Shown here: positions 991 through 29,244 of the stretch, one piece after another
How the letters are laid out: every line of letters begins with the position of its first letter
Position numbering within the stretch: position 1 is the first letter of the stretch
NCBI GenBank assembly: GCA_913053615.1
Contig: CAJXHA010000007.1
Coordinates: forward strand, 1-32,071
DNA from: an uncultured Bacteriovoracaceae bacterium
Lineage (GTDB): Bacteria; Bdellovibrionota; Bacteriovoracia; Bacteriovoracales; Bacteriovoracaceae
Length of the DNA: 32,071 nt
Direction: 5' to 3'
Position numbers and translations under genes: made by a program
Notes under the pieces: model-generated
Seen by the model: only the letters and a program-made list of their open reading frames with translations
The model's database searches: none
Told to the model about the DNA's origin: nothing

Positions 991-1042
991 TCTGGCATAT
1001 TAGTAAGTTAGAAGGTGAGTGTCAATTACTCAGTGCGAAACA

Positions 1043-1102
1043 TGGCGGAGGACAAGAGATTCGAACTCTCGAGACGCTTTCACGCCTACACGCTTTCCAA
1101 GC
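1043..1102 (-). pseudogene. 3'-half remnant of tRNA-Ser (left attachment site)
   Basis: Reverse strand GCTTGGAAAGCGTGTAGGCGTGAAAGCGTCTCGAGAGTTCGAATCTCTTGTCCTCCGCCA: anticodon loop, variable arm, T-arm and CCA end of a tRNA-Ser. No D-arm or 5' acceptor follows. Matches the 3' half of the intact tRNA at 29155-29244. Confidence 0.88.
1087..1102. repeat. attL core (direct repeat copy 1)
   Basis: TACACGCTTTCCAAGC, identical to 29199-29214. Confidence 0.82.
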
Positions 1103-4749: not shown

Positions 4750-5319
4750 TTAATTTTTTAAGATTATTTCTGGAGAATACTTCTCTACAATGGCCCTAAC
4801 AATTTTTTTATGCACAGGAGTACACCTTGAACCGAATATAATTTCTTTAACGCTTATCTTAACAAATTGCTCTGTAGAAATAACTCTATGCTCTCTTTCG
4901 TAATTCCAAGCTTTTAATTTTTTCATTAAAACTTCTTGAGGTGTAGAGTTATACTGCAAAATAGGTAAGTCATCTAAATAGGTAACAGGGCCAGAATGAA
5001 TAAAGTCGGGCCTATCTTCAATAGTTACACCAATACAAACACCTTTGTGACTATTTGCATAGTGAGACCACATAAGCATATTGTTATTATCCTTAGATAA
5101 TGAACAAATGCGATGTTTTTGCTTTTGGTTAAAAAAGTCTTTAGCCCACTTATCTATATTTTTCTCATTATCTTCATTCATAGAGTAATAATAATGTCCT
5201 TCCATTGGATCATTTAAAGTTTGAAATTGAGCTGCATACAACCTTTTATTTAGTATAATGTCTGCAAAAAACTCAAAATTATCTAATCCTCTATACTTAT
5301 AGAAAACTTCCTCTCTCAT
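4750..5319 (-). CDS. DUF2971 domain-containing protein
   Basis: YKYRGLDNFEFFADIILNKRLYAAQFQTLNDPMEGHY...RICSLSKDNNNMLMWSHYANSHKGVCIGV matches the DUF2971 pattern (NDPfe / CS / lMWsHYa..H.G). Confidence 0.8.
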   Translation of the reverse strand: MREEVFYKYRGLDNFEFFADIILNKRLYAAQFQTLNDPMEGHYYYSMNEDNEKNIDKWAKDFFNQKQKHRICSLSKDNNNMLMWSHYANSHKGVCIGVTIEDRPDFIHSGPVTYLDDLPILQYNSTPQEVLMKKLKAWNYEREHRVISTEQFVKISVKEIIFGSRCTPVHKKIVRAIVEKYSPEIILKN

Positions 5320-5377
5320 TCATCTTCCTGGATTTTGGTCACGTTATTTAAACCATCTTTTTAAGTCTTAAAATTTT

Positions 5378-5617
5378 TTATACTTCTAAATCATCATTAA
5401 CTTCTTCGATAGAAATCACTAAAGCTTTTTGAATTGTATGTGTTCCACCCATGTTATCGCCATATTCATTAACAGCACTTGGGCCTTCTTCTTCTAACTC
5501 GATAGTATCTGCATCTATTTTTGTTAGAACTCCATAGTCGTCCATAACCTGATGCAAGTTTTGAACCTTAACTTTTACATATTTTCCTAAAAACTTATCA
5601 AAATCAATCATTACCAA
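5378..5617 (-). CDS. Small hypothetical protein (79 aa), possibly Sm/SH3-like beta-barrel
   Basis: FLGKYVKVKVQNLHQVMDDYGVLTKIDADTIELEEEG...HTIQKALVISIEEV; strand-rich pattern. Overlaps the upstream DUF262 ORF by 14 bp. Confidence 0.65.
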   Translation of the reverse strand: MVMIDFDKFLGKYVKVKVQNLHQVMDDYGVLTKIDADTIELEEEGPSAVNEYGDNMGGTHTIQKALVISIEEVNDDLEV

Positions 5618-7283: not shown

Positions 7284-7285
7284 GT

Positions 7286-10200: not shown

Positions 10201-10552
10201 TTTCCATAGAATCAAGTGCTCTATATGAGTCATCTGTACTGAAGGTTTTTTGATGTGCCCACTTGTTTCTTATATCACGAAGTTCACTAGTAATGTTTCT
10301 ATCATTTCTACTTAGAGTTTTTCCAAAAACACTATTCCAATTATCCCACATAATTTGAAGCAAGCCCTGTACATCCCATTCAATCTTATTGGCTTTGATC
10401 ATATCCTTTTGATGTTCACGAAGATTATTACTTACAGTAGTAATCCAATCATCACCATAAGTTTGATTAAGTTCTCTCTCAACATAAGGAGTTAATTCTT
10501 CTTGCAGAATATCTAAACACTTTCCAATTCTTTCTCTATTACTTATTGCCAT
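7286..10552 (-). CDS. DUF499 (COG1483-like) ATPase with N-terminal Swt1-like HEPN region
   Basis: Walker A ELQTNFGGGKTHSMLALYHLF, Walker B PCLIMIDEWVAYARQL; N-terminus RIGKCLDILQEELTPYVERELNQTYGDDWI plus RNKWAH. Between a DUF1156-type methylase and a DUF262 gene. Confidence 0.85.
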   Translation of the reverse strand: MAISNRERIGKCLDILQEELTPYVERELNQTYGDDWITTVSNNLREHQKDMIKANKIEWDVQGLLQIMWDNWNSVFGKTLSRNDRNITSELRDIRNKWAHQKTFSTDDSYRALDSMERLLQSVASNKTDEVSKHKHEVMRLRYEEQSKYQVKKSRMAELEGNPEGGLKPWREVIMPHEDVATGKFVQAEFAADLWQVYLNQGSDEYKDPIEFYKRTFITEGLEVLLENGLKRLSGDSGEPVIELQTNFGGGKTHSMLALYHLFSGTPASNLLGADELVKKVKIEPPTKVHRAVIVGTNISPGQPHAKDDGTLVHTIWGEIAWQLGGKEGYALVEEDDKRGTNPGETLKVLFDKYSPCLIMIDEWVAYARQLGRSDDLPAGTLDTHFTFAQMLTQAVKTSPKAFLVVSVPASDNEIGGEIGQKALNGIKKALGRVETPWKAATPQEGFEIVRRRLFNNLDNQSAVSRDAVVRSFYDAYQTQYQEFPSECRERDYKRRLEVAYPIHPLLFDFLFETWSTLDRFQKTRGVLRLMSKVIHALWEREDKNLLILPATVPLDDPHVQAELTNYLEDPWEGVISSDIDGPESFSVRVDRENPNLGRFSATRRVSRTIFVGSAPTQHSTTKGISDKEIKLGCFQPGETAATFGDALRKLDGSSYLNEESGKYWFTTRATIATKAKDLAANFEEKKDEVFREIQEVVKKNASRRGEFSRVHVMPTSPSDVPDDLDCRLVILPTENTHTSKAKDSKALSFAKELLDSKGTSPRLNKNTLIFMSADGENLKSLIKATADYLAWKEIEDDKEKYDLTQSQAKMATKRKESARGVMELRIPETFIWMIYPTQMTSGDVLEWTEERITGHEPLAEKASRKLVSAGQLAAEMAPIALRCELDRVPLWQGDHVNVKDLAEYFARYLYLPRIKSQEVLLNSIEQNYSNLLLSFEDSFFYAQGYDNTRNCYMGLTFSSGVHPIADGNSVLVKPEVAEKFRPKDDVRPLSEIGSNSQTTDANPQKKEDKKTRRFHASFSIQDPARISRDIGTINQEILSHLTGLLGSQAEIRLEVQINVPDGIDDDVVRTVSENANTLSCNYGFEED

Positions 10553-10568
10553 ACCGCACCCCTTGTTT

Positions 10569-13388
10569 TTAAACTTGCATTGCCCTCTCAGACATACTAC
10601 TCCAGGCAGTAATTAGAGAATTATAAACTCTAGATTCATTAATCCATTCCTTCTTTACACAAAGGTTATAACATCTATATGCTAGTTTTTTACAACTCTC
10701 AGCCCTCTCCCCAACATCCAACAACAACTTTGCTGCTTCTTGCTCTCCATTTTTCTCTAAAATTTTATAAAGATAGTGAGTAATTTCCCATATGCTTTTC
10801 GTAGAAACATCACTCGAATTCCAATTATCAGGTAAGTCTTCGGTATTAATGAGTTTAACTTTTCCATTTTTTGAAATTAAAGTTTTATTAGATGTTGAAT
10901 TTAAATTTACATTCTTTGCTTGAGCTAAGGTATTTGCATCTCCATATGCCCCCTCCTCGAAACCATTGATCGAAAACCAGGTTAGACAAAAACGAGTATA
11001 ATTATCAAACTCATTCTCTGACTCTTCCATCACTTCATCTAATATTTGGTTTATTAAAATTAGTGCGGATCTTACGCTCATTATACTTCCGTCATTCTCA
11101 ACCACTTTCTCATACCTAGAAAAAACACCAATTCCAGGACCAATAATTGATTGTTCCAAATCCACTGCTGCAATATTGGCACTTCTCATATGATCTAAAC
11201 TTGTAGATAACTCAGCCTTAAGCTCTTGCATAAAGCTTCTTTTTGGAATTATCTTTCCATTCCGATTTGGATTAGGCCTACAAGTCAATACGATAGATGA
11301 TGCAAGTGCGTTGTTTCCCATACCAATCATTCTTGTTGATTGCTCACTTCTTAATGGCCATGTACCAGTTATTCTCAAACCTGAATTTATTAATGCACTT
11401 AAAAATGCTTCCCATCCAGAGGATACTCTATTGTTATCGCTTAGCTCTGATTGTTTAAATGCATAGTAAACCGTCATTGGATATAGATTATTTATTGTAT
11501 TTGATAAATTTGTAAAAACCTGAGTCATTCCTTTTAAGAAGAAATCATTAGCAAGCTTTTTACTTTTATGCCTAATTGGTGACGCAATTAATTCCGTACT
11601 TTTAGGCACCAATACAGTTTTAAAATAATTTGGATAAATACTTTTCAATGAATTTCTCATCCATACATAGAAAAAATCTGATAAATCTGCATATCCAATA
11701 TTGTCATAGTAAGGTGGGTCTGTTGAAATTACAGCACCTAATGAAAGTTTTTGAGAGCTAGCATCCTCAACATAAGCTTTACCCATCTGGTAAGCTGGTA
11801 ATTTTTCGATGCATTTGGATTGATATTCAATATTATTGATAAATCCACCTACATTTTTTCCTAGCATATTTGCTTCGCCAAAGTCCCAAACCATCGGAAC
11901 AGCATGACGATTAAACAAGCCCATAATTTTTTCATTTCCAGCCCTCCATCCAGTTAGAGAATTGTTAAAGTCAGCCGTTCTGTCTATTGAAAGTGCAATA
12001 TAGGTTGCAATACATTCTGCATAGGCTATTGCACCACTTCCCCCCTCAGAAATTCTCTTTCCCTTTTCAACCCCTTCATTCACTAAATCATTTGTTATTT
12101 TTTCAATTACCTTAGGTATACATTCAGAAAACGTTATAAGACCAAGCATCTGTCGATTTAAAAATAAATCTTTATGTTCAAGCATTCCATACTCTTGAAC
12201 CCTAAAACCTAACGCTTTCGATGGCAGTTTTGTTGTAATTACGTTATCAGGATAGGTTATATTTTTTATGATTTTTTCATATTTTTCATCAGGCTCTACA
12301 TATATTTTTTCCCTATCTCCCTGAAGAGCTATTGCCACTAATTTAAAACCAATTTTTCCTTTTTTCCCTTGTTCTCTTATATAATCAAAGGGAATAGGTG
12401 TATTTGAAATTACACATCGCCCCCCAGAACGACCAATTGTGCCAATAGTATTTTTACTTTTATCGTTGTATGTCACTCTAATTGAATACGTATTGTTTTT
12501 AACTTCAACCTTTAATTTTGTATTATTTTTTTTTGACAGTAAGAAATTCTTTATTAATGGTACTTTTTGTCCTTTCAAAAAAGGATCAGGACTTTCTACG
12601 GTTCTGGCCCATATCCATGCAACAACAGGTAGCTCTCGACCTAAATATTTGTTAAACTGCTTGTTGATGCCAACATGCTTATCCGTTATTTCAATATTCT
12701 TCCAATTATTTCCAATTAAGTCATTTACGATTTTCCATACCCAATATCCATACCTTCTTACATCTTCAGCAATAACATCAAGACTCCTCTTATATTTTTT
12801 ATTTTTATTTAATTTAATCAAATCTGTTTCAGTATATTCGCCATATGGTTTTTCAACATTAAAAGCATAGGGTAGCTCTATCATTGATTTTGTTATAAGT
12901 GCAGCGACAGGGTTCAAATCGCTTCCAACCGAACTTAATCCTAAACGTCCTGCTTCTGTAGGTATTGCACCTCCTCCACAAAAAGGATCATAGATAAAAG
13001 GCAAGGCACAACCATCAATTTCAATATTGTTAACTCTGCAATTTATCAACCAAGATTTTTTTATTTCGGAATATGCTAGTTTCATCAATTCTTCATCATC
13101 ACTATTTTTCCAATCTGAAAGTTTTTCGATTATTTTAAATAAAGACTCTTTCTTCTTTAAGGCGTCTCGCATACTCCCTTTTTTTGTAATATTAAATTCA
13201 CTTACCGGGTCGTTTACCAATTGAGCGAAAATTACTGCTCGTGCAGCAGCAAATGGTCTTCGGGCCCACCAATGGTGAATTCCCCTTGGATGAGAGCCAA
13301 TACCAGGGAGCTTCTCATAAGCACTGTTTGCATTAATTGTTTCAAGTGGTATAGATGTCTCAATTATTTTTTTTATATATACTGTCAT
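10569..13388 (-). CDS. DUF1156 (COG1743-like) adenine-specific DNA methyltransferase
   Basis: N-terminus IPLETINANSAYEKLPGIGSHPRGIHHWWARRPFAAARAVIFAQLV; SAM motif FIYDPFCGGGAIPTEAGRLG; catalytic DPPYYDNIGYADLSDFFYVWMR. Confidence 0.9.
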   Translation of the reverse strand: MTVYIKKIIETSIPLETINANSAYEKLPGIGSHPRGIHHWWARRPFAAARAVIFAQLVNDPVSEFNITKKGSMRDALKKKESLFKIIEKLSDWKNSDDEELMKLAYSEIKKSWLINCRVNNIEIDGCALPFIYDPFCGGGAIPTEAGRLGLSSVGSDLNPVAALITKSMIELPYAFNVEKPYGEYTETDLIKLNKNKKYKRSLDVIAEDVRRYGYWVWKIVNDLIGNNWKNIEITDKHVGINKQFNKYLGRELPVVAWIWARTVESPDPFLKGQKVPLIKNFLLSKKNNTKLKVEVKNNTYSIRVTYNDKSKNTIGTIGRSGGRCVISNTPIPFDYIREQGKKGKIGFKLVAIALQGDREKIYVEPDEKYEKIIKNITYPDNVITTKLPSKALGFRVQEYGMLEHKDLFLNRQMLGLITFSECIPKVIEKITNDLVNEGVEKGKRISEGGSGAIAYAECIATYIALSIDRTADFNNSLTGWRAGNEKIMGLFNRHAVPMVWDFGEANMLGKNVGGFINNIEYQSKCIEKLPAYQMGKAYVEDASSQKLSLGAVISTDPPYYDNIGYADLSDFFYVWMRNSLKSIYPNYFKTVLVPKSTELIASPIRHKSKKLANDFFLKGMTQVFTNLSNTINNLYPMTVYYAFKQSELSDNNRVSSGWEAFLSALINSGLRITGTWPLRSEQSTRMIGMGNNALASSIVLTCRPNPNRNGKIIPKRSFMQELKAELSTSLDHMRSANIAAVDLEQSIIGPGIGVFSRYEKVVENDGSIMSVRSALILINQILDEVMEESENEFDNYTRFCLTWFSINGFEEGAYGDANTLAQAKNVNLNSTSNKTLISKNGKVKLINTEDLPDNWNSSDVSTKSIWEITHYLYKILEKNGEQEAAKLLLDVGERAESCKKLAYRCYNLCVKKEWINESRVYNSLITAWSSMSERAMQV

Positions 13389-16300
13389 TTTATCTCACTC
13401 GATTTTTTATATAGTTCTTTAATTTTATAATTAATACTAGTTGCTTCAAAATCAGGTTCATTTGTGAAGGGCTCCCTAATATATACAGGGTCTTTTGCAA
13501 TATCATTTTCGATCTCAACTATTGCGAGGATAAAACTATCTGGCTTATTCAAGCCTACTAATATTTCATTTTTAGTTATTGTTACAGTTTCTGCACCAAA
13601 GACACGGCCTTTTACTTCGATAAACCTAAGGTTACCTTCTTTATCTTTAGATTCAATGTCATAACCACATTTCTCATGGCTAACATCTCTTGGAACATTT
13701 CCAAGACTTCGTTCTACTTCAAAGATTTTATTCATCGCAATCATTTCTGATTTCTTAGTTTCTTTTGCAAAGAGCCCTATTTCCTCAGAAGATTTTCCTT
13801 CTATCTTTTGAAGAAATCCTTTCGGTATTATCAAGGCACCACCAATAACTACGGGAGGAAGAGGGGATACCTGTCTTTCTTGTTGGATTTCTAGTTCTCT
13901 TTTCTTTAATCTTGTAGCAAGATCATCTGCTCTTTGCTGTGCTTTTTTTGAATTTAACTTGGTATTTTTCTTCTTTCCAGACTCTTCTTGAAGTCTTAGC
14001 TGCTCTGAACGATGATCCCAGTATCCTATTTCCTTAGTTAACCTTGTCTTAACTGCTTTTAATGTTTTATCTAATCTCACAAAGATTCTTTCTTTTATTT
14101 CGTCAAAGTGCCTTGGGACTATGTTTTCTATTGCGTAGGACACGGCCATATCTTCTGGTGAACTCAATTGTGACAGTTTTTCTTCAAGAGTAGGTTCTAA
14201 TTTGATTATCTCATCATCTGTTAGCGGCCTATAATTTAAGAAAGGGGCATAGCCTGCTTGAACAAATTTTTCTACATTAGCCTTATTTTCATAAGACTTT
14301 ATATTTCCCTCTAAAAAAAGCATCTGCTTTGAAATTATTCTTCGATGCCCATCTTTATTAACTCGACCATCTTGAACTCCATGTTCAAGATAGACTAGTA
14401 AACGTAAGTCTTCTGAACAATCTTCTGGATCTACTAAAATTGCACCTTGTTTTAGAATATCTTTATTTTTCTGTAAGATTATATCTATCGTTGCATCTAG
14501 CAGGGGATGACCTGGACAAATATACTCTGCACGTGGTTTTCCCTGAGGAGCTATAAGATCTTTTTCAAATGTAATCCGTTCGTATCTTTGTAATACTGAT
14601 TGGCCCTTTCCAATTACTCTATCAGTATTTCTAATTTGTGCTGGAACGTGCGAGATTTGATATCTTCGAGATTCCCTTTCTTGTATCGAGCCTCCTAACA
14701 TTTTGAATGACTCTTTAAAAAATGCCTCGATATAATGTGGTTGGAGCTTCTTTGCTTCAGCTCTTTCCATTTGTTCCTTAATTTCTTGAACTTTAATGCT
14801 ATCCATTGAATCATGACCAATAGCATTTTCTTTTATTAGCTCTTCAAGTTTCTCTCTGTCTAGTGATGAGTCTATTACTTGATCAAGTCGTGCTTTTACA
14901 TCAGGTCTCTCTCCATACCTAACAGCCTCAACCAGTAGGTCTCGCAATGTTCTATTGTCAAAAGTAACTTTGCCTAAGATATCAAAAACTTGACCATGGA
15001 GTGCATCTTTTTCATTATCGAGTTTTTCTAATAATCTCTGATATACTTCGCCTTCTCTTGTCTCAGATGCAACAAGATTCCATAAGTGACATACTTCTGT
15101 TTGACCAATTCTGTGTATTCGTCCAAATCTTTGTTCGAGACGATTAGGGTTCCAAGGTAAATCATAATTAATCATTAAATGTGCACGTTGTAGATTCACA
15201 CCTTCGCCAGCGGCATCAGTTGCAACTAATATTTTCACATTGGGATCATTAAGGAATTTATTTTCGGAATTTTTTCTTTCTTCTCTGGCTGATCCCCCAT
15301 GAATAGTAACAATAGAATCGCCTTCTCCAAAAAGTGTCGAAACTCTATTAACTAAATAATTTAAAGTATCTTTATGTTCTGTAAAAATTATTAACTTACG
15401 TCTAGCTCCATGTGAATCATACATTGAACTATTTTCTTGAAGTAGTTTAGATAGCTCATCCCACTTTCTATCAGTTCCAGAGCGTACAACTTGATTCGCT
15501 GTATTTTCTAAGTCTTTTAGACTTCTAATTTCTGCTTCTAATTCTGGAATTGTTTTACTTGCAGTTGCCTGATCAAGTACAAGCTCTTCTTGTTGTTCGA
15601 CCTCAAAATCTGGTGCATCTTCAAGATCTTCCAAATCCTCTACTGAAAGCTTAACATCTTCTTTCAAACTAACTTGCTCTAATGATTGCCCACGAGCTGC
15701 AAGTTTCGCTTCGTTCAAACGGTTTTCAAGCCTCTCTCTTCTTCTTTTCAAACTTTCATATATTGCTGCAGGTGATGATGCCAATCTTCGTTGTAATATT
15801 GTTAGTGCAAAGCCTACTGTTCCTCTTCTACCATCATTTTCCAAAGCATCGGCTCTGTTAAATTCATTACGAACATATTCTGTTACATCTGTATATAATT
15901 GAGCTTCAAGAGGCGATAGTTCATAGTTAACTGTGTAGGCACGTCTCTCTGGAAAAAGTGGCTTCCCATCAAACTTCACTAATTGTTCTTTTACTAATCG
16001 TCTCATCATATCTGATGGATCGATCGAGTGAACTCCTTCTCGAAATACACCTTCAAATCGGTCACCATCTAAAAGGCCAAGAAAAAGCTGAAAATCTATG
16101 TCTTTACCATTATGTGGTGTTGCTGTCATAAGCAGAAAATTTCGGGTAACTTCAGAAAGGAGTTTACCAAGTTTATATCTTTTAGTGTATTTTACTTCTC
16201 CTCCCCAATATGAAGCAGACATTTTATGGGCCTCATCACAAACGACAAGGTCCCAATCTGTAACTCTAAGTTTTTCTTGTATATCTTCATTTCTACTTAA

Positions 16301-16924
16301 TTTATCCAGACGGCAAATCACTAATGAATTTTCTAAAAACCAATTTCCCGTTCTTGCTGACTCGAGTTTGTCGTTTGTTAATATTTCAAAGGGAAGATTA
16401 AATTTATGATATAGTTCATCTTGCCACTGTTCGACTAAGTTTCCAGGACAGACAATTAAACACCTTTGTAGATCACCTCTTGCAACAAGTTCTTTTATAA
16501 GAAGACCTGCCATAATCGTTTTACCAGCACCTGGATCATCTGCAAGAAGAAATCGTAATGGTTGTCTTGGTAACATTGACTCATACACAGCTGTGATTTG
16601 ATGAGGTAATGGTTGAACTAATGATGTATGTACAGCAAGAAGAGGGTCAAACAAATATGCAAGTCTGATTCGATAAGCCTCCGATGCTAATTTTAATGCA
16701 TATCCATCAGCATCAAAACTCCATGGTCGACCATGCTCAACAACACTTAGTTCTATTTCCTTTTCTCTTAGAACAACTTCTTGTGATACTTTACCAAATG
16801 AATCTTTATAGGTGAGTGTAATGGCGGAGCTACCGTGCCATGAAATATCAATAATAGTTACTAGGGAGTCAGGTAAAATTCCTTTAACGACTGCCCCACG
16901 TTGAAGGTCTTCCAATTTGACCAT
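13385..16924 (-). CDS. SNF2-family DEAH helicase with C-terminal DUF3883-like domain
   Basis: LLADDPGAGKTIMAGLLIKEL; DLVVCDEAHKMSA; LMTATPHNGKD; NPNRLEQRFGRIHRIGQTE; C-terminus GYDIESKDKEGNLRFIEVKGRVFGAETVTITKNEI. ATGA overlap with the methylase. Confidence 0.92.
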   Translation of the reverse strand: MVKLEDLQRGAVVKGILPDSLVTIIDISWHGSSAITLTYKDSFGKVSQEVVLREKEIELSVVEHGRPWSFDADGYALKLASEAYRIRLAYLFDPLLAVHTSLVQPLPHQITAVYESMLPRQPLRFLLADDPGAGKTIMAGLLIKELVARGDLQRCLIVCPGNLVEQWQDELYHKFNLPFEILTNDKLESARTGNWFLENSLVICRLDKLSRNEDIQEKLRVTDWDLVVCDEAHKMSASYWGGEVKYTKRYKLGKLLSEVTRNFLLMTATPHNGKDIDFQLFLGLLDGDRFEGVFREGVHSIDPSDMMRRLVKEQLVKFDGKPLFPERRAYTVNYELSPLEAQLYTDVTEYVRNEFNRADALENDGRRGTVGFALTILQRRLASSPAAIYESLKRRRERLENRLNEAKLAARGQSLEQVSLKEDVKLSVEDLEDLEDAPDFEVEQQEELVLDQATASKTIPELEAEIRSLKDLENTANQVVRSGTDRKWDELSKLLQENSSMYDSHGARRKLIIFTEHKDTLNYLVNRVSTLFGEGDSIVTIHGGSAREERKNSENKFLNDPNVKILVATDAAGEGVNLQRAHLMINYDLPWNPNRLEQRFGRIHRIGQTEVCHLWNLVASETREGEVYQRLLEKLDNEKDALHGQVFDILGKVTFDNRTLRDLLVEAVRYGERPDVKARLDQVIDSSLDREKLEELIKENAIGHDSMDSIKVQEIKEQMERAEAKKLQPHYIEAFFKESFKMLGGSIQERESRRYQISHVPAQIRNTDRVIGKGQSVLQRYERITFEKDLIAPQGKPRAEYICPGHPLLDATIDIILQKNKDILKQGAILVDPEDCSEDLRLLVYLEHGVQDGRVNKDGHRRIISKQMLFLEGNIKSYENKANVEKFVQAGYAPFLNYRPLTDDEIIKLEPTLEEKLSQLSSPEDMAVSYAIENIVPRHFDEIKERIFVRLDKTLKAVKTRLTKEIGYWDHRSEQLRLQEESGKKKNTKLNSKKAQQRADDLATRLKKRELEIQQERQVSPLPPVVIGGALIIPKGFLQKIEGKSSEEIGLFAKETKKSEMIAMNKIFEVERSLGNVPRDVSHEKCGYDIESKDKEGNLRFIEVKGRVFGAETVTITKNEILVGLNKPDSFILAIVEIENDIAKDPVYIREPFTNEPDFEATSINYKIKELYKKSSEIK

Positions 16925-17763: not shown

Positions 17764-17994
17764 TTAAATTTTGTACTTTTTTTTAATTGTCTTAATTCCT
17801 TCTCTCAGAGCTTCAACAAATACATCGTTCTTTCTAATCACATAGCTATTTTCATCTCTATTATCATTAAGTATTTGAACAAGCTCTTCTATCTCAAGAG
17901 TAATCTCATCTTTAGTTGCTTTATCAAGACGAAAAGATAGAAGTGGATAATCATTTGGGTGTTTTTTTTCTTTCTTTTTGAATCCAAGTGTCAT
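17764..17994 (-). CDS. Small protein, possibly ribbon-helix-helix DNA-binding
   Basis: YPLLSFRLDKATKDEITLEIEELVQILNDNRDENSYVIRKNDVFVEALREGIKTIKKKYKI; beta-strand followed by helical segments. Family assignment uncertain. Confidence 0.5.
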   Translation of the reverse strand: MTLGFKKKEKKHPNDYPLLSFRLDKATKDEITLEIEELVQILNDNRDENSYVIRKNDVFVEALREGIKTIKKKYKI

Positions 17995-18120: not shown

Positions 18121-19500
18121 ATGAATAAGCAACTAATAACCAAAACATTGATTAAATCTTATGTAGACTGCCAGAAGGGCCTTTATCTAGAGCTTAACAA
18201 TCCAGAGTTAAAACATCTTAAGGATGATCCATTTCTGTCATATTTAGCTAGTGAGGGTTATAAATTTGAGGACATTGTTATTTCTCTTTTTCCTAATGCG
18301 AATCTCCAAGCAACATTTACGAGTAATGGTGTACTTATTCGTACAGATATTTTAACTGATGATGCACTAATTGAAGTGAAGTCATCTACAAGCGTTAGAA
18401 GCGAAGACATTTTAGATATCGCAATACAAGCATGTATTCTAAAAGAGACGGGCAATGATCCTGGTGTATATAAGTTGGCCTTTGTTGATAACACTTATTC
18501 ATTAGCATCTGGCCTTGATATTAATCGCTTAGTTCGTTTTGAGGACGTAACGGCTTTGGTAGAAGAAATCCTTCCTGAAGTTGAAGATCTTATCAAAAAT
18601 GCTAGAAAGACCGCTAATGCAAAGAAATCTCCTAAAAGAGAAGTTGGTCGTCACTGTTTATCATGCCCATTTATTGAAAGTTGTTCTCCTGAGTTATTGG
18701 ATTATTCAATATTCCATCTTAGAAGGGGTGGAAAAAAAATTGATGACCTCTTAAATGAAGGTGTTAAACATCTAAAAGATATTACGTCTTCTACTAATCT
18801 TTCAGGCTATCAAGAGCTTCAAGTGAAGGCATCTAGTATTGGTGATATTATTAACAGGGAAAGCATTAATGCTACCCTGAATACTTTGAGATATCCCATA
18901 TATTATTTGGATTTTGAAGCAGCTCCAATCTTAATTCCTAGATATGATGGTTCTTCTCCTTATGAACAGATAACTTTTCAAGTATCAATTCATATTGAGG
19001 AGTCGCCAGGAGCTGAACTTAAACATATTGAATTTTTACATGATCAAGATACTGATCCTCGCCATGACCTTGCTCAGTTTCTAGATCAAAACATAAACGA
19101 ACAGGGATCTATTGTTGTCTATCATGCCAGTTATGAAAAAGGACGACTACAAGAGATCGCTGACAAATATCCTGAATATTCAACTAAGATGAATGATTTT
19201 ATTAGCCGTTTATGGGATCTTGAAACTATTTTTACAAAGGGCCATTACATTTCATCTAAATTTAATGGCAGCACTAGTATTAAAAAGGTGCTTCCTGTTC
19301 TTGCTCCAGCATTAAGCTATCAAGATCTTAATATATCAAATGGGGCTGATGCCTTTATAAGTTATCTTCAAATGATTGATGATAATACAACCTCAAGGAA
19401 GAAACGAGAAATCTATAACTCGCTTCTGCAATACTGCAAAATGGACACGTATGCGATGTATGCAATCGTGGAAGCTCTGCGGGAGGTTTGCCATGAATAG
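18121..19500 (+). CDS. DUF2779 protein: RecB/Cas4-like nuclease plus RNase H-like region
   Basis: LIKSYVDCQKGLYLELN; ALIEVKSST; GRHCLSCPFIESCSPE (Fe-S type cysteines); YPIYYLDFEAAP...; LLQYCKMDTYAMYAIVEALREV. Confidence 0.87.
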   Translation: MNKQLITKTLIKSYVDCQKGLYLELNNPELKHLKDDPFLSYLASEGYKFEDIVISLFPNANLQATFTSNGVLIRTDILTDDALIEVKSSTSVRSEDILDIAIQACILKETGNDPGVYKLAFVDNTYSLASGLDINRLVRFEDVTALVEEILPEVEDLIKNARKTANAKKSPKREVGRHCLSCPFIESCSPELLDYSIFHLRRGGKKIDDLLNEGVKHLKDITSSTNLSGYQELQVKASSIGDIINRESINATLNTLRYPIYYLDFEAAPILIPRYDGSSPYEQITFQVSIHIEESPGAELKHIEFLHDQDTDPRHDLAQFLDQNINEQGSIVVYHASYEKGRLQEIADKYPEYSTKMNDFISRLWDLETIFTKGHYISSKFNGSTSIKKVLPVLAPALSYQDLNISNGADAFISYLQMIDDNTTSRKKREIYNSLLQYCKMDTYAMYAIVEALREVCHE

Positions 19501-19598
19501 TTCTAGATAAATTTCCTAGTTATTAACATTTTATGATCGTCCCAATGCTCACATTCTGAGTAAGTGGAGAACTTTAACTTTTTTCATACGAGGTAAAA

Positions 19599-20150
19599 AT
19601 GAAAAAACTATTTATTTCTGATCTCGAGCAAGAAACAGGAGTTTCGAGAAGAAATATTTATAAATACATTAGAAATAATGCTTTCTATAAAAAGTTTAAA
19701 ATCAAAACGATGTCTGAGCTTCCAAACGGCGTTTCAAAAGGATCTCCAGCCAAGGTATTAAGCCAAGAACAATACGATTATTTGAAGGATAAAATAGAAA
19801 GTGATCCTAATTTAAAAAACAACGAAGACCCAATGGATGGCAAGGATTGTGTTTACGTCGTCGACCTTTGTCCCAATGGCTTTATTGTTATCAATGGCCA
19901 AAAACAAAAACGCTTTAAGATTGGCTACACTTCAAGATCTCCCAAAAAAAGAGAAAAAGATTATAGAGTGAGTAACCCTGAGGCCGCCATCGTCATGACA
20001 ATGGAGCTTGGAACTTCTGAAGAGCAGGTCCTTTTAAAATATATCAATGGAAAATCGTGCAAAAGGATTGGTAACACTGAACTTTTTGATGTCGAAGATG
20101 TGGATAAGTTCCTTAGTAAAATTCAAGAATTTTATGAAAATCTAAAATAA
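19599..20150 (+). CDS. N-terminal HTH plus GIY-YIG-like (T5orf172/MUG113) domain protein
   Basis: LFISDLEQETGVSRRNIYKYIRNNAFY; CVYVVDLCPNG...KRFKIGYTSRSPKKREKDYRVSNPEAAIVMTMELGTSEEQVLLKYI...TELFDVEDVDKFL. Confidence 0.78.
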   Translation: MKKLFISDLEQETGVSRRNIYKYIRNNAFYKKFKIKTMSELPNGVSKGSPAKVLSQEQYDYLKDKIESDPNLKNNEDPMDGKDCVYVVDLCPNGFIVINGQKQKRFKIGYTSRSPKKREKDYRVSNPEAAIVMTMELGTSEEQVLLKYINGKSCKRIGNTELFDVEDVDKFLSKIQEFYENLK

Positions 20151-20166
20151 TTTATAGGAGAATATT

Positions 20167-21096
20167 ATGTTTGATCAATGCCAAGACCCAACTATTAAAA
20201 GTATCAATGTACCTGTTAAGCAAATCAAAGGAATTATAGAAAGTCCTAATGGTAATACTATATTAATATCAAATAACGCTATGGCCATTACTATAGACCT
20301 TGATGGAAATATTCTTAACTCTGGCCAGCTTCTCCCAAGCACTGAAATCTTAAGTTTTGTAGAGTATGAAGAAGAGTTCTGGTTTACAACAGCTGATAAG
20401 CATATATATGTTATTAATTCAGACCTTCAAATTACTCAATCATTCTCTCTGGATTATGTAGCCACTTCCGTTGCCCCACTTGAAGATAGGTCTGCTTTGG
20501 TTATTTCTTACTTTGATCAGCAAACGAATCAATCTTTCTTTGAGTATCGTTCACTGCCAGAGTTAAATATTCTAGCAACTGGTTTCTATGGGCCAAAGAC
20601 CCCAATTATTAGCTCAGTTGCATTTAAACATGATGGCCATATATTTCTAGCCTGTTGCTCAAAATCTGAACTTTCTCTTTTAAAAGTTCAGGGGCAGGAA
20701 TTAATTAATATTCAGAGCTATTCTGAAGAGAGTGAAGGTAGGGAGCTAAACTATTCTCAATTGCTAGCTGAATCTAAGAGGTTTTTAGTCGATAATATGA
20801 CAGGTAGAGTAAAAGCTGACCTTGAACCTTCTAAGTACATGGAGAAACTTTGCTTTTTTAGAAATGAAGAAGCAACTCATGGTGCCATTGCTAAAAGAGA
20901 TAACTGGATTGCTTTTCTTAACCCAAATCAACTTAAAATGGTTAATTATGATACAAAAGAGAGCTATAAGTTTCAAACAAAGCTAGATAATCCAAACATC
21001 GTAAAAGTGCTCAAATACCATGTAATCTGCGTCTACGACAATGTTTTAAGCATCTATGACTTTAGGAAGCAATCACTGAAGTTCATCATGGATTGA
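20167..21096 (+). CDS. Predicted beta-propeller-like protein, function unknown
   Basis: Repeating beta-rich segments (IKGIIESPNGNTILISNNAMAITIDLDGNIL; EFWFTTADKHIYVINSDLQI; VAFKHDGHIFLACCSKSELSLLKV; NWIAFLNPNQLKMVNYDTKE). Located 16 bp after the preceding ORF. Confidence 0.65.
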   Translation: MFDQCQDPTIKSINVPVKQIKGIIESPNGNTILISNNAMAITIDLDGNILNSGQLLPSTEILSFVEYEEEFWFTTADKHIYVINSDLQITQSFSLDYVATSVAPLEDRSALVISYFDQQTNQSFFEYRSLPELNILATGFYGPKTPIISSVAFKHDGHIFLACCSKSELSLLKVQGQELINIQSYSEESEGRELNYSQLLAESKRFLVDNMTGRVKADLEPSKYMEKLCFFRNEEATHGAIAKRDNWIAFLNPNQLKMVNYDTKESYKFQTKLDNPNIVKVLKYHVICVYDNVLSIYDFRKQSLKFIMD

Positions 21097-21138
21097 TAAT
21101 CTACTAATACGAGGGAATTAGTATCAAAGGAGATTATT

Positions 21139-23169
21139 ATGCTTAGAATTTATTATTCAACACTTTTAAACGAGTTTGTTTCAAAAGAAATCACAGAAGA
21201 CAAAAGAGATGCTTTGGGCCCAGTATACTCTTCGATTCTAAATCAGTATCTAGATTATTATGGGCTTTCTCAAGCTTCACCAGTGGGTGAAGAACTCTAT
21301 GATGTAGAAAAGCTTGGAATATATTTTGAGTCTCTAAAAGGAAAATACAGTGGTACTACAACGCCAGGAATAAAGTCCAAACTAAGAAAGATTAGAGATT
21401 TTGGTATCAAACTCAGCTACAATCATGACATTGTAAAACTACAATTTGGTGATTCTCTTGCTCATATTTTAAATATAAAAAAGATGAGTGGGACGAAGTT
21501 GGCTCAACAGCTAGAGTTAAGACCTCAGACAGTCACTGAATGGATTTCAGGAAAAAATCTACCTTCTTATAAGCATCTTAATAAAATTGGAAAAATTGAA
21601 GATATACTTGAGGTTCCAAGGGGTGTTCTTAAAAGTAAACTTGGTAGAGTTGCTCATGGAGAAAGAATAAAACTTCTTGATGCCAGAGAAAGAACTCCAC
21701 ATGGGCTAAAAACTAGTAAATTAAAGCAGAAGTCCTACTATCTTCCTTTAGATCAAATGCCTCAAAATGTACAAGATGACATTGCTACCATGGTTGCATT
21801 TTTTACTTCATCATTTCCACAAACTATTCATCCTAAGTTCAAGCGGGCAAAAAAGCAATTTTGGAGAATAAAACCAAACAAAAAGGAAAGTGGAAAAGCT
21901 CTTATGGTCATTAAGGACATACAGCAATTCTTTGGTTTTCTCACTTCTCCTTCTGATCATGCTGACCCATTGCAAAGAGGTCTAGATATTCCCATCAATA
22001 AATTATCTCTTTCACTTTTAATGAACCCTGAGTTTATTGGAAAATATGTTCAGTTTAGAATGGAAAGAAAGAAAAATCTTACTACTGGAGTTAAAAGAAT
22101 TTTAGATCAATTTAAAGTATTTTGTCGTAAAAAGTATGGTTACATAAGACAGCATACCAAATTAGGTCAAGAATATTTCGTCATTCAAAATGGACAATAT
22201 ATTTATCCCTATCAATCTTGCAACCCCTCTGATTGGAATATGTTATGGGATCAAATATGTGAAGATACTCACGAATACCTTGATGATACTGTAGAGTCCT
22301 CCGTTTTTGTTTCAGATGTTAACACCTTTAAAACTATTGAAAACATTGTTGAAACAGATATCTTACCACAAGTAAAAGATATACTAGACTGGATTAAACT
22401 AGATGCATCTTTGAAGGGATTAGGTACTGTAACTACGGCACAAAAAAAGAGAGACTCTCTTCTCTCCATGTTGATCTTTTTATTCGAATTAAGAATTGAT
22501 CACTATGCAACAATGGAGTTTGATAAGCACATCTTTGAAAAAAATGGTGAGTTAAAATTCAGAATATTCAGGGATGAACTTAAACGTCCAGAAGTATTAA
22601 AAACTCCTTATGTAACATTAACGATCCCAAGGGATGTTGCTGCTCAAATTATGGAGTATAAAAATATCCATCGTCCACATCTTTATGGTGCTAAAGAAAG
22701 TAATAAGGTTTTCCTTTCAAATCCTTCTGGACGAAAAACACCAGAATCAGTTAATGGTGTGCAAGCAAGGTCACTATCTTATGCCTTCAAGTCTTTAATG
22801 TCTCTTTACTCAAACAGTTCTACAGGGTTTGGCCCACATGCTGTAAGAAAAATTATTACATCAGTTCTCGATAGAAAGCGTGACATCGCAGACTTTGATA
22901 ATGCTGCAACCCTGGCCATGCATACACCAGAAGTTAGTAGAACCTCTTATGCTGCCAATGAAATTGAAGCTGCATTTGAGCATTATGTTGCTCGTCTTCA
23001 ACATGCAGGAATTTTATCTATGCCAGAAGGGGAAAGAAGGAAGATACAGGTTGATGAAATTGACTATCATGATCTTCTTATTAAAAATAAAGAGCTTGAA
23101 AAAATGCTTATTGAAGCTCAAGAGAAACTTGTTAAAGTAGGAGATAAAAGTTTATCTCTTGTAAGTTAA
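21139..23169 (+). CDS. XRE-HTH fused to tyrosine recombinase-like domain
   Basis: HTH: KMSGTKLAQQLELRPQTVTEWISGKNLPSYKHL. Recombinase motifs: FELRIDHYATMEF (Arg I), GPHAVRKII (HxxR), LAMHTPEVSRTSYAAN (His and Tyr). Confidence 0.72.
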   Translation: MLRIYYSTLLNEFVSKEITEDKRDALGPVYSSILNQYLDYYGLSQASPVGEELYDVEKLGIYFESLKGKYSGTTTPGIKSKLRKIRDFGIKLSYNHDIVKLQFGDSLAHILNIKKMSGTKLAQQLELRPQTVTEWISGKNLPSYKHLNKIGKIEDILEVPRGVLKSKLGRVAHGERIKLLDARERTPHGLKTSKLKQKSYYLPLDQMPQNVQDDIATMVAFFTSSFPQTIHPKFKRAKKQFWRIKPNKKESGKALMVIKDIQQFFGFLTSPSDHADPLQRGLDIPINKLSLSLLMNPEFIGKYVQFRMERKKNLTTGVKRILDQFKVFCRKKYGYIRQHTKLGQEYFVIQNGQYIYPYQSCNPSDWNMLWDQICEDTHEYLDDTVESSVFVSDVNTFKTIENIVETDILPQVKDILDWIKLDASLKGLGTVTTAQKKRDSLLSMLIFLFELRIDHYATMEFDKHIFEKNGELKFRIFRDELKRPEVLKTPYVTLTIPRDVAAQIMEYKNIHRPHLYGAKESNKVFLSNPSGRKTPESVNGVQARSLSYAFKSLMSLYSNSSTGFGPHAVRKIITSVLDRKRDIADFDNAATLAMHTPEVSRTSYAANEIEAAFEHYVARLQHAGILSMPEGERRKIQVDEIDYHDLLIKNKELEKMLIEAQEKLVKVGDKSLSLVS

Positions 23170-24020
23170 GAAAGTTTCTTATCTGCAAGCCACTCATTTA
23201 TTTCTGTTACGACTGACTCTAGGGTAGCAGGTATTGATAATTGGCTTGCTACCTTTCCAAGCTTTCTTAAGTGAGCTGCCCAAAGTGTCTGCATTGCTGC
23301 AAATTCATCTTCATCAAAGGATACAGGAAGCTCTTTATTCGTATTACGTGTTGTAAAAGTAGTATCAATACTATTTTGTAGTTTGGCTATATCCAAAAGA
23401 CTTTTCTCTCTGCTTAGCAAAAGAAGATCATGAAAATCCTTCATCCTACTGTTAGCAGCTCCTTTTGATACTACAGTTTCAAGCTTCTCTGCAAAAATTG
23501 TCTCAACTGGATATATTTGAAGTGTTATTGCTCCCTCAAAGATTGGCTTTCCTTTGTATTCATACAACTCTAATGACTCAAGCTTTGGATCAACAAGATC
23601 TCCAACTCCAATATCTACTTGGATCTTATCCTTCATCTTTTGACCAAATGTCAGATCAATATTTAATCTATATCCAGGATAATTCATATGAGGTTGTTCA
23701 AGAGGGACAACTTCAGCAAACTTAAAACTGAATCCATCTTCAATTTGTACACTACAAATTTCAATAAATGATTTTTCTATATTTGGGACATCAGCATTAA
23801 TTTTATTTGCCAAAAAATCTACATCCTTTGTTTCTCTACCAATATCAATATAATGGGAAAGAAGTAGACCACCTTTAAATATAAATTGATCCCTATATTC
23901 AGAGCCTGAAATTCTCGCAAGAAACCTTTCTAGCACTAAAGAACGCCACACCTCACCAAAGTCTTTACCTTCATCCTTAGCAATGCTTTTAATTCTCTCT
24001 TTAAGTGCCTGCTCATTCAT
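23166..24020 (-). CDS. abiEii: AbiEii-type nucleotidyltransferase toxin
   Basis: RDQFIFKGGLLLSHYIDIGRETKDVDFLANKI; IQVDIGVGD; MKDFHDLLLLSRE; coupled by ATGA overlap to an AbiEi-like gene. Confidence 0.87.
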   Translation of the reverse strand: MNEQALKERIKSIAKDEGKDFGEVWRSLVLERFLARISGSEYRDQFIFKGGLLLSHYIDIGRETKDVDFLANKINADVPNIEKSFIEICSVQIEDGFSFKFAEVVPLEQPHMNYPGYRLNIDLTFGQKMKDKIQVDIGVGDLVDPKLESLELYEYKGKPIFEGAITLQIYPVETIFAEKLETVVSKGAANSRMKDFHDLLLLSREKSLLDIAKLQNSIDTTFTTRNTNKELPVSFDEDEFAAMQTLWAAHLRKLGKVASQLSIPATLESVVTEINEWLADKKLS

Positions 24021-24613
24021 GTTGTGACCGCCATAATATAAGGAGCTATTTTAACTCTTAGCTCTTTTGCATATTTTTGAAGCTTTTTAAGATCAAGCTT
24101 ATCTTTTCCACTTCTGGCCAGTGCAGCCTTAAGGGCCTTAACTCCTATCTCAACTCCAAGATATCTAAAGGAATCAAGAATTGTACGTTCTACATCAAAA
24201 ATTTGAACCTTTTCACTTCCAAGAGCAAATTCAGTTTTACCTAGATCGATATTTCTCATTCTAACTATTCTGGCCCCACTTCTTCTTGGTGCTCTTGAGC
24301 TATGTGAAACAGCAATCCAATGGGCACGTGGAATTTCATCTGTTAGCTCATAAAGGGTGAGAGCAGAGATAAGACAGATCACGCCATCAGGTATACTTTT
24401 AGATACAAGAACAAGATCTTCATAACGAAAATCAACGTCAAGGTCTTGATTGGAGCTTCTGTATACACCTCTATCAACACGCTCAATCATTCCTTTTTTG
24501 ATATAATAATTTATCAGGCTCGGGCTTATACCTAGCTCTCTGGCCTCACTTGCTCTAAAGACTGTTTTCTTTAGTAGTGGTTTAAGTTTCTGAAATTGCG
24601 TATTAGTGTTCAT
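24017..24613 (-). CDS. abiEi: AbiEi-type antitoxin/autorepressor
   Basis: VFRASEARELGISPSLINYYIKKGMIERVDRGVYRSS (wHTH); GVICLISALTLYELTDEIPRAHWIAVSHSSRAPR (AbiEi C-terminal pattern). Confidence 0.87.
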   Translation of the reverse strand: MNTNTQFQKLKPLLKKTVFRASEARELGISPSLINYYIKKGMIERVDRGVYRSSNQDLDVDFRYEDLVLVSKSIPDGVICLISALTLYELTDEIPRAHWIAVSHSSRAPRRSGARIVRMRNIDLGKTEFALGSEKVQIFDVERTILDSFRYLGVEIGVKALKAALARSGKDKLDLKKLQKYAKELRVKIAPYIMAVTT

Positions 24614-24677: not shown

Positions 24678-24953
24678 CATGGTAATTTCTTAGTGATATC
24701 AGAAACTTAGATCCATCTATAGGGTAAAGATACATGGCCAGAGCTAGAAAAACTTCCCAAATTACCAACTCTTTTGTCAGGTAGTTCATGTAACTCAGAT
24801 AGAAGCATCTCAACAAAATATCAATATTATCAATAGGTTAAATGGCAATTTGAGCAATTATGGTAATGACTTTTTGCTCTTTTATTACCATAAGATTATT
24901 CCTTGTAATATCAAGCACTTAAGCCATTTTTAGAGCAATCTCAAATTACCATG
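24678..24953. repeat. Noncoding region with five TGGTAAT/ATTACCA elements
   Basis: TGGTAATTT at 24680, AAATTACCA at 24759, TGGTAAT at 24861, ATTACCA at 24884, AAATTACCA at 24943; no long ORF. Confidence 0.6.
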
Positions 24954-25014: not shown

Positions 25015-25323
25015 ATGAGTTCTATTTATGTAGACATCATCGTTTCAAGATTAATGAAAATTTACGAGACGGAGTTTGGTGGGAAACCTAACGGCAGATT
25101 TAAAATCTGCTACCAAAGAATGCAGCAGGTGACAGGGAAAACAATTATCAACTCTACCTTCTTTACTCAATTACAGGAGTGTGCATTTAACTCTGGTCTT
25201 ACCATTATCAATTTAGGAAGTGAGTTTGCGGTGATTGAAACTGGCATTCTTACTGGTTATCGTAACGTTCCTCAGGGCTGTATTGATAAAGTATTAAAGG
25301 AGCAAAGTCATGATCAAAGATAA
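25015..25323 (+). CDS. Hypothetical protein (102 aa)
   Basis: Preceded by AAGGAG; overlaps the start of the CHC2 zinc-finger ORF, suggesting translational coupling. Confidence 0.65.
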   Translation: MSSIYVDIIVSRLMKIYETEFGGKPNGRFKICYQRMQQVTGKTIINSTFFTQLQECAFNSGLTIINLGSEFAVIETGILTGYRNVPQGCIDKVLKEQSHDQR

Positions 25324-25588
25324 AATTGAGAAAATTAAAACTGCAAATATATCATCAATACTTAGGCATTTTATACGGCTAAAAGCACATCAAAATAAAT
25401 ATAGGGGACTATGCCCTTTTTGTGACAATCGAAAAGAGACACTGTTTGTAGATGATCATAAATCCATTTACTACTGCAGTGAAGATGGTGGCGGTGGTGA
25501 TGCCATTAGCTTTGTTATGAACTTTAAAGACATCACCTTTGATGAAAGCCTTAATCTCATCTTATCACTGATCGGCAACCAATCTTAA
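25310..25588 (+). CDS. Stand-alone CHC2 zinc-finger (DnaG N-terminal-like) protein
   Basis: ISSILRHFIRLKAHQNKYRGLCPFCDNRKETLFVDDHKSIYYCSEDGGGGDAISFVMNFKDITFDESLNLI: CPFC...YYC...GGDAISFVM of primase zinc-binding domains, with no TOPRIM region. Confidence 0.85.
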   Translation: MIKDKIEKIKTANISSILRHFIRLKAHQNKYRGLCPFCDNRKETLFVDDHKSIYYCSEDGGGGDAISFVMNFKDITFDESLNLILSLIGNQS

Positions 25589-27004
25589 CTTAGGTACTTG
25601 GGCCACTGATGATGCTTCTGGTGGTCTAGGAGGTGTATCCTTATGAAGCATTTTCTCTCTAAATGCTGCGTGAGCTGTTCTAGCACGCAGCTCTTTTCTC
25701 TTATCATCGTTCATATAGTTTTTCTCATTAACTTCCTTGCTGTGCCCCAAGATATAAGCTCTATCCTCTGCTGATATGCCCTTATCTCCCATCTCTTCAT
25801 TCAAAGTGTTTCTAAAGTCATGAACTTGATAATCTTTTCCTCTATAGGCAAGACCAAAATGTTTACTGGCATCATCAACTAAGTTTTGAATACCTTTTAA
25901 GAAATCATCACAACGTTGCCATCGACCATGTCGATAAATTGGGAATAGGAAGCGATACTTTTTGTAAGAGGTCGTTCCACCCTTTGGGGTTATTCTTCCA
26001 TATATTTCATGGTTTCTATGCTTTATTTGCTGAGATTTTATATAAGCAATACATCTTTCATCCAAAGGAATAATTCTCTTATGTCTATTATGAGTTTTAA
26101 CCTGAAATCCCATTTCAATATTAGTCGGGCAATCAGGCTTATCCATTAATATGATGCTGTCAAAATTGTACTTATCGGGGTAGAGGTTTTCTTCACTAAG
26201 AGTAGACATCTCTCCCTTAGCAATACCTGTTGTTCTATAAAGATAAATCATCTCTTTTCTATCTGGATAATTAAAGGGTGTTTCAAATGGATAACTATCA
26301 ACAGCAGAAAGTAATTCTTTGGGATAGGTTACAGTTCTTGTTCCAACGGTCTCATTTTCATGGCCATTAGTTTCAGGAGTAGAGCTAATAACTGCTGGAT
26401 TCATATTAAGGCCAAGCTTTTTTGCCAGACAATTAAAATAGGCTTTTAATAACCTCTTGTAAGATGCTGCCGTTACAATATTAATAGGCTTCCCATTTTC
26501 AGCACACCACTTTTGAAGATTATCTTCTATTTGTTGCAGGTCATTTGTATCCACCTCTTCTAAATATCGCTTACCTGTACGTTTACTAACAGTTTTCAAA
26601 AGATATTTTAAAGTTGGCTCTTGCCTTGCGATATTACTATCTCTTTTACGGTGCCTTCCTTTATTAAAATCGGTGTAATATAAACTCATCCCATCTAAAA
26701 ATAGTGTTTGGCCTTTTTTAGACTTCACTTCAAATTTTTCAAGCTTTGATATCGATTTAAGAGGAAAACATCCATTTCTAACAAGTGATTCAAACTCCCG
26801 TACCGTCTTGTTTCTAGCAGCTTCTGTCTTGCAGCTATCAGTCATAAGTCCATAATAATGCTCTCTTTTGCCAGTGGTTAAATAAAAAGTGATTCTGTAT
26901 CCATTACGATATTTCTCAATCTTAGGGTTAGGAGAAACAATTCCACTGTACTTAAAGTTAGTTTTCTTAAAATCACTCCCGTTTAAATACAAACAATTTA
27001 ACAT
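25565..27004 (-). CDS. int: Tyrosine-type site-specific recombinase (island integrase)
   Basis: VHDFRNTLNEEMGDKG (HxxR), YILGHSKEVNEKNYMNDD (His and Tyr), KTHNRHKRIIPLD; close to attR and adjacent to an excisionase-like gene. Confidence 0.87.
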   Translation of the reverse strand: MLNCLYLNGSDFKKTNFKYSGIVSPNPKIEKYRNGYRITFYLTTGKREHYYGLMTDSCKTEAARNKTVREFESLVRNGCFPLKSISKLEKFEVKSKKGQTLFLDGMSLYYTDFNKGRHRKRDSNIARQEPTLKYLLKTVSKRTGKRYLEEVDTNDLQQIEDNLQKWCAENGKPINIVTAASYKRLLKAYFNCLAKKLGLNMNPAVISSTPETNGHENETVGTRTVTYPKELLSAVDSYPFETPFNYPDRKEMIYLYRTTGIAKGEMSTLSEENLYPDKYNFDSIILMDKPDCPTNIEMGFQVKTHNRHKRIIPLDERCIAYIKSQQIKHRNHEIYGRITPKGGTTSYKKYRFLFPIYRHGRWQRCDDFLKGIQNLVDDASKHFGLAYRGKDYQVHDFRNTLNEEMGDKGISAEDRAYILGHSKEVNEKNYMNDDKRKELRARTAHAAFREKMLHKDTPPRPPEASSVAQVPKLRLVADQ

Positions 27005-27015
27005 TTGGCCTCCGA

Positions 27016-27309
27016 CTAAAAATTTTGATGAAATCGAGATTTTCTCTCCAGAAATTCATCAAGATCTTTTTGAGTATAGATTTTATCTTTACCAATAAGC
27101 TTCCAGGTTATTTTCTTTTTCTTGGCATAATTCTTTAGTGTTTGAAGTTCAACTCTCAAGTAATCTGCAGCTTCTTCTTCTGTAAATATCGTTTTGGGGA
27201 CTTTCAATGACTCAGCTAATTGATACATAAGCTTAATCTGAGAGTAGTCATATACAACCACTGGAGACTTCTTATTAGCCTTTTCGAATATCTCTTTATT
27301 CTTTTTCAT
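27016..27309 (-). CDS. Excisionase-like HTH protein
   Basis: FTEEEAADYLRVELQTLKNYAKKKKITWKLIGKDKIYTQKDLDEFLERK; 11 bp upstream of the integrase gene. Confidence 0.78.
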   Translation of the reverse strand: MKKNKEIFEKANKKSPVVVYDYSQIKLMYQLAESLKVPKTIFTEEEAADYLRVELQTLKNYAKKKKITWKLIGKDKIYTQKDLDEFLERKSRFHQNF

Positions 27310-29094: not shown

Positions 29095-29113
29095 TGCGTG
29101 CAATTTGCGTGCA
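29095..29113. repeat. Tandem TGCGTGCA motifs (candidate recombinase arm-type sites, right end)
   Basis: TGCGTGCA at 29095-29102 and 29106-29113. GTTTGCGTGCAATTT (29092-29106) also occurs at 1227-1241. Confidence 0.7.
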
Positions 29114-29154: not shown

Positions 29155-29244
29155 TGGCGGAGGACAAGGGATTCGAACCCTCGAACGAGTTTCCCCGTTA
29201 CACGCTTTCCAAGCGTGCGCCTTCGACCACTCGGCCAATCCTCC
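29155..29244 (-). tRNA. tRNA-Ser(GGA), CCA encoded
   Basis: GGAGGATTGGCCGAGTGGTCGAAGGCGCACGCTTGGAAAGCGTGTAACGGGGAAACTCGTTCGAGGGTTCGAATCCCTTGTCCTCCGCCA; GGA anticodon, long variable arm. Confidence 0.97.
29199..29214. repeat. attR core (direct repeat copy 2), within the tRNA-Ser anticodon stem-loop
   Basis: TACACGCTTTCCAAGC, identical to 1087-1102. Confidence 0.82.

Follow-up and report, generated by a model that had tools for sequence, protein, structure and literature searches.

The window analysed here is one entire contig of 32,071 nucleotides (CAJXHA010000007.1) from an uncultured Bacteriovoracaceae bacterium, and it contains a complete island of ~28 kb with tRNA attachment (att) repeats at both ends and an integrase at the tRNA end. 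A sequence-only reading had singled out three plus-strand genes of this window as a possible new system, encoding a nuclease-like protein with a helix-turn-helix (HTH) and a GIY-YIG domain, a beta-propeller, and a tyrosine recombinase with an XRE-type HTH. The three open reading frames matched those described exactly, with gaps of 16 and 42 bp (Table 1), and the observation was confirmed. A better description of the trio, however, is that of a tRNA-Ser island's backbone module holding a recombinase from a family associated with toxin-antitoxin (TA) cassettes; instead of being one part of a closed defence trio, this recombinase may be a component of a gene-capture system that has so far gone unrecognised.

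Table 1. Features of the island and of the module under study, in order of position in the window
Feature	Position	Strand	Details
attR, diverged copy of tRNA-Ser 3' part	1042..1102	-	arm repeats at 1219-1264
Small divergent gene	17764..17994	-	76 aa; looks ribbon-helix-helix-like by eye; found upstream of DUF2779 in every module (blastp)
DUF2779 exonuclease-like / Cas4-like gene	18121..19500	+	459 aa; Pfam DUF2779 138 bits
Conserved 98-bp spacer	19501..19598	.	inverted repeat CTCA-N5-TGAG at 19547-19562 and conserved 3' block
HTH and T5orf172 (GIY-YIG superfamily) nuclease-like gene	19599..20150	+	183 aa
Beta-propeller-like gene	20167..21096	+	309 aa
XRE-HTH and tyrosine recombinase	21139..23169	+	676 aa; R452 K482 H567 R570 H595 Y604
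AbiEii/AbiEi toxin-antitoxin pair	23166..24613	-	Pfam AbiEii 140 bits, AbiEi_4 38 bits; adjoins recombinase
88-bp inverted-repeat element TGGTAATTT...AAATTACCA	24680..24767	.	right border of TA slot; candidate recombination site (or origin)
Small gene with CHC2 zinc finger (DnaG-type)	25310..25588	+	Zn_ribbon_DnaG 67.5 bits for G050 orthologue (Pfam)
Island integrase, tyrosine recombinase	25565..27004	-	PHROG integrase 5.9e-16; first catalytic Arg replaced by Ala
Excisionase-like small HTH gene	27016..27309	-	conserved beside integrase in five islands
attL in tRNA-Ser(GGA)	29155..29244	-	arm repeats TGCACGCA at 29095-29102 and 29106-29113

When the recombinase was used as query, the full trio was found in three of the 369 genomes of the phylum, each time within this island type, and a search for the GIY-YIG-like and propeller genes returned the same three among 129 genomes of the family. 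The three genes are therefore co-conserved in three islands, being intact also in genomes G050 and G038; the trio is distinct from the integrase module, and in G038 trio and integrase have diverged to a similar degree. Values of dN/dS were 0.07-0.14 for the trio genes and 0.07-0.16 for all genes tested, so that the trio is under purifying selection. Pfam, NCBIfam, PHROGs and PADLOC gave no name for a system of this composition, and neither scans of viral contigs nor tblastn against phages revealed a viral carrier. What did not hold was the idea of a closed three-gene system: a DUF2779 gene forms part of the module, the propeller occurs without the GIY-YIG-like gene or the recombinase, and distant relatives of the recombinase lack both partners and often lie beside TA genes. 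A closed trio was rejected on these grounds.

The recombinase has its XRE-type HTH at aa ~102-152 and the full R...HxxR...H...Y set near the C-terminus, both features being as first proposed. The Pfam Phage_integrase model did not match it, nor did the integron-integrase (IntI) models of Pfam and NCBIfam, and by motif and order it can be assigned as a diverged relative of the tyrosine recombinases, with cleavage predicted. The starting point for a deep family of XRE-containing recombinases was a tblastn match on a Deinococcus plasmid; in an alignment of nine family members from Bdellovibrionota, Deinococcus and rhizobia (~20% identity) R452, K482, H567, R570 and Y604 were invariant. On two Deinococcus plasmids the relative is located directly before an 880-aa gene, which gave a weak DNA primase match in the one examined. 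The possibility that the island recombinase is degenerate was ruled out by its intact catalytic residues and low dN/dS (0.10), while its structure model (pLDDT 40) was too poor for fold comparison. Between the window and G050 the island backbone is mostly 87-99% identical, and aa ~87-520 of the recombinase only 68-86%. Because synonymous sites are near saturation in this segment, which comprises the XRE domain and the core-binding part, it is, judged from the sequences, replaced as a block between the two islands; the same saturation points to allele replacement and rules out positive selection on the DNA-binding part. A distant XRE-recombinase in G195 (L017 5939-9550) is frameshifted at HxxR and lies beside a phage-type integrase and a 615-aa unknown gene.

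Adjoining the recombinase is the AbiE pair, which runs tail to tail with it, the stop codons overlapping. The content of this TA slot changes with lineage, G038 having another AbiE-type pair and G018, where only a fragment of the recombinase was found, a DUF1778-like/GNAT pair (named by eye). On its right the slot is bordered by an 88-bp inverted-repeat element whose length and position are constant in the window, G050, G038 and G018, and the three TA types all end at its first base, on the TGGTAATTT side, so that different TA pairs occupy one fixed border. The nine outer base pairs of the element are invariant, with covariation being uninformative on folding. Searches by DNA similarity recovered the element in three of 129 family genomes, all with a full recombinase; the G018 copy is diverged and was recovered with a profile. 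Five copies of TGGTAAT/ATTACCA, in both orientations, lie at 24680-24951 of the window by the CHC2 zinc-finger gene and are possible origin iterons. An origin role for the 88-bp element and the TTACCA repeats is thus possible, because further TTACCA repeats follow the element.

A second line of evidence comes from Agrobacterium and Rhizobium plasmids, whose homologues of the recombinase are annotated as 'hypothetical' and are found, in different contexts, in compact, sharp-ended units together with a PIN or Fic gene. These units end in a ~20-bp site resembling a tRNA T-arm, and further sites of the same orientation bound VapBC, RelBE and HipAB modules; AbiEii/DUF6088 pairs, the TA type of the window, also adjoin such sites. 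The core pattern, with up to one mismatch, gave 44 matches in 10 plasmids, one of which had none, the reversed control giving 0, and all sites were on a single strand in eight of the nine rhizobial plasmids with matches. TA modules and recombinase units are bounded by these sites (CTTGANNGGANTCGAACC) on L079, L090-L094, L096, L098 and L099. One VapBC cassette is present twice on a single plasmid, in 100% identical copies with unrelated flanks, the match stopping at the sites, and some sites stand isolated among metabolic genes. The search for a clean empty site of a rhizobial unit matched the left flank alone. The pattern looks like an undescribed dispersed TA-cassette system, going by the sequences; a limited literature search found no published description of such cassettes, and papers beyond it are possible. 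This rhizobial pattern is a stronger observation than the claim specific to the island, which rests on the coincidence of borders and on distant relatives.

The reading we favour, at a rough probability of 0.4, is that the recombinase is an active site-specific tyrosine recombinase of the deep XRE family that exchanges TA cassettes in the island slot. It would insert or exchange a TA pair in the stretch that runs from the 3' end of its gene to the 88-bp element, and the TA genes of the slot would help to hold the island in its host, with phage resistance as a benefit that may be added. The GIY-YIG-like, propeller and DUF2779/Cas4-like genes belong to the island backbone, and their products probably act as an accessory module for DNA processing or for cutting competitors, in which the HTH of the GIY-YIG protein would give specificity and the propeller would be a scaffold. 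We infer both the action of the recombinase on the 88-bp element and the status of the TA pair as its cassette, as well as the roles of the other three proteins. Several points weigh against the proposal. The island and rhizobial recombinases share only ~20% identity, and the latter have Asp at the position of His595. To the left of the TA slot, where the recombinase lies, no matching repeat was found, the best left/right pairs being at chance level, and the rhizobial site motif was absent from the island, the tRNA T-arm being the only loose match in the window. The 88-bp element and the recombinase are in one island, which makes their co-occurrence partly trivial, and homologous recombination through the conserved flanks would give a similar picture of TA exchange. 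No recombination product was seen.

Regarding the remaining genes of the module, the GIY-YIG-like protein matched Pfam T5orf172 at aa 101-174 marginally (20.1 bits against a cut-off of 20.0, E 0.00091), so that of the GIY-YIG/MUG113 label first given to it the superfamily stands, through this marginal match, and MUG113 gave a weak match only. It has an N-terminal HTH-like stretch with weak HTH matches; its orthologues are 92% and 74% identical, and Y110, R118 and E141/E142, catalytic candidates assigned by eye, are invariant across the three proteins. For the propeller-like protein, with orthologues at 94%, 63% and 56% identity, no family scored above cut-off. The AlphaFold model of this protein was made from two sequences and is all-beta with a mean pLDDT of 57 (77-90 in the first blades, poor in the second half), and the 50 listed of 1174 PDB matches (E<=0.001) are mostly WD40, BamB-type or designed beta-propellers; the mean confidence of the model is low. 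PADLOC gave no match for the propeller, weak matches in the HTH region only for the GIY-YIG-like protein and the recombinase, and Cas4-like matches for the DUF2779 protein, a family that Majorek et al. assigned to the 3'-5' exonucleases to which a PD-(D/E)XK-like domain is attached (PMC3985635).

The DUF2779/Cas4-like gene is probably the first gene of the operon that includes the trio, because the spacer between them is constant in every copy. This spacer is exactly 98 bp in four modules and its 3' block is kept though the next gene differs, and it could be an operator or an exchange point. The strict CTCA-N5-TGAG motif occurs once in the window; a looser pattern, GCTCA-N5-TGAG, was discarded as a signal, its frequency being at chance level. 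DUF2779 was likewise set aside as a marker of the system, being frequent in the phylum (in 47 of 369 genomes) and occurring in other contexts. A second module in G038 consists of the small divergent gene, DUF2779, the 98-bp spacer, the propeller and a helicase-like gene pair, which replaces the GIY-YIG-like gene, and has no recombinase, while in G150 and G163, members of the family, DUF2779, a helicase of the G038 type, a small HTH gene and a related integrase follow in a row. Because its composition varies in this way in G038, G150 and G163, the module is, in terms of gene content, a backbone with exchangeable parts. The helicase-like gene of G038 (contig C105, L028 3577-5099) is split into two frames overlapping by 16 nt, the homologues in G150 and G163 being single genes; the split could be a real frameshift, a programmed one or an assembly error.

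The island backbone is conserved in G050 and in G038, the latter a contig from a Bacteriovoracaceae metagenome-assembled genome, and the cargo differs: G050 has HsdR and further genes of restriction type, the window has Hma-type genes and G038 an SNF2-type helicase. Between window positions 2052-16924 and G050 L018 2324-16873 the cargo is swapped at one site, the outer HEC-05- and PDC-S06-type genes being 96-98% identical. The signal recognition particle RNA gene lies immediately outside attR. Inside each island end there are TGCACGCA repeats, two of them 11 bp apart, and the same is seen in G050, while G038, with an integrase of 67% identity, carries TGCACTCA at the tRNA end in their place. 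On this evidence the island possesses an arm-site integrase of its own, accompanied by the excisionase-like gene. In the trio-bearing islands this integrase has Ala at the first catalytic Arg, which does not prove it inactive, since some integrases of the CTnDOT type use an alternative Arg (PMC8138268). The integrases of G150 and G163 (L060 10324-11880; L061 6411-7892) keep the first Arg and have Tyr at the first His.

Among known systems, integrons, including TA-rich chromosomal ones (IntI, attC), resemble the present case in that a tyrosine recombinase is linked to TA cassettes, the sites separating cassettes in the rhizobial relatives are in the same orientation, and an inverted-repeat element lies beside the island slot. 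An XRE domain and a long N-terminal half set the recombinase apart from an integron integrase, and it gave no match to IntI. The rhizobial sites are ~20 bp long, T-arm-like and dispersed over plasmids, with the recombinase gene itself in a cassette, and the island slot holds one TA pair, with neither an array nor a partner site found on the left. The Gamma-mobile-trio (GmtX, GmtY and GmtZ) comprises three genes including a recombinase and is linked to defence cargo. The partners of the recombinase here are instead GIY-YIG-like and propeller-like, and the island carries a separate integrase; NCBIfam returned no match named for it, the presence of such models in the library being unchecked. With other tRNA-integrated islands that use arm-type integrases the window has in common attL and attR in tRNA-Ser, an integrase and a small HTH gene at the tRNA end, and swapped defence cargo. 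It departs from the typical ones in that its backbone bears a second complete tyrosine recombinase with a nuclease-propeller module and in that its integrase is without the canonical Arg at the first catalytic position. Phage ICP1 encodes the T5orf172 nuclease Odn, which cuts at the origin of the satellite PLE (PMC8263062). This enzyme resembles the first protein of the trio in that a T5orf172/GIY-YIG domain is joined to a DNA-binding domain at the N-terminus and the gene is carried by a genome engaged in conflict between elements. Odn works by itself, with a DNA-binding part that imitates the satellite initiator (PMC8263062), whereas here genes for a propeller and a recombinase follow.

The precedent of T5orf172 weapons in such conflicts (PMC8263062) is one argument for the main alternative, in which the DUF2779/Cas4-like, HTH-GIY-YIG, propeller and XRE-recombinase genes form one module against phages or competitors: the GIY-YIG protein would cut DNA chosen by its HTH, as Odn does, DUF2779 would degrade it, the propeller would serve as scaffold and the recombinase-like protein would add a DNA-specific step. 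The presence of two nuclease-like genes, their setting among Hma, HEC-05 and PDC-S06 cargo of defence type (PADLOC), the replacement of the middle gene by a helicase in another, related module and the block replacement of the XRE and core-binding segment between near-identical islands all fit this view. However, the trio proteins have no PADLOC system match beyond the weak HTH ones, the genes belong to the backbone and not to the variable cargo, and the distant recombinase relatives are without nuclease or propeller partners. Of the three roles first proposed (defence, DNA rearrangement or a nested mobile unit), the relatives back DNA rearrangement best, and defence is a possible though less probable explanation.

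An involvement in island maintenance appears unlikely. The recombinase would then resolve dimers of an excised, replicating form, its XRE domain would regulate the operon, the 88-bp element with the TTACCA repeats behind it would be an origin or resolution site, and the TA genes would change by homologous recombination. The CHC2 zinc-finger gene beside several inverted TTACCA repeats speaks for it, and so do the plasmid-borne relatives, in particular the two Deinococcus ones with their 880-aa neighbour; yet the rhizobial relatives move as site-ended cassettes instead of being fixed at one plasmid resolution site, and three TA types end at the same base of the 88-bp element. Less probable still is a role of the recombinase as integrase of a smaller, nested element, even though it is a second complete tyrosine recombinase within an island and its rhizobial homologues sit in small mobile units. 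Its position and neighbours are unchanged in three diverged islands, the 98-bp spacer to DUF2779 is constant, and trio and integrase are similarly diverged in G038. The att sites that such an element should have were looked for as direct repeats flanking the trio, and no pair exceeded chance; the island, for its part, has its own integrase, excisionase-like gene, attL, attR and arm sites.

The exchange of TA cassettes that we favour for the island could be part of something wider. Tentatively, and as a proposal that we would not call likely, a system unrelated to IntI may exist in which XRE-tyrosine recombinases of Bdellovibrionota, Deinococcus and Rhizobiales capture and shuffle TA cassettes at their own sites, T-arm-like in rhizobia and represented in Bacteriovoracaceae by the 88-bp element together with a nuclease-propeller module. 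The strand bias of the rhizobial sites hints at recombination tied to the direction of replication. If true, this would constitute a second, IntI-independent route by which plasmids and islands collect TA genes in cassette form, the proteins in charge being ones that are now annotated as hypothetical, and it would help to explain how TA genes spread and accumulate.

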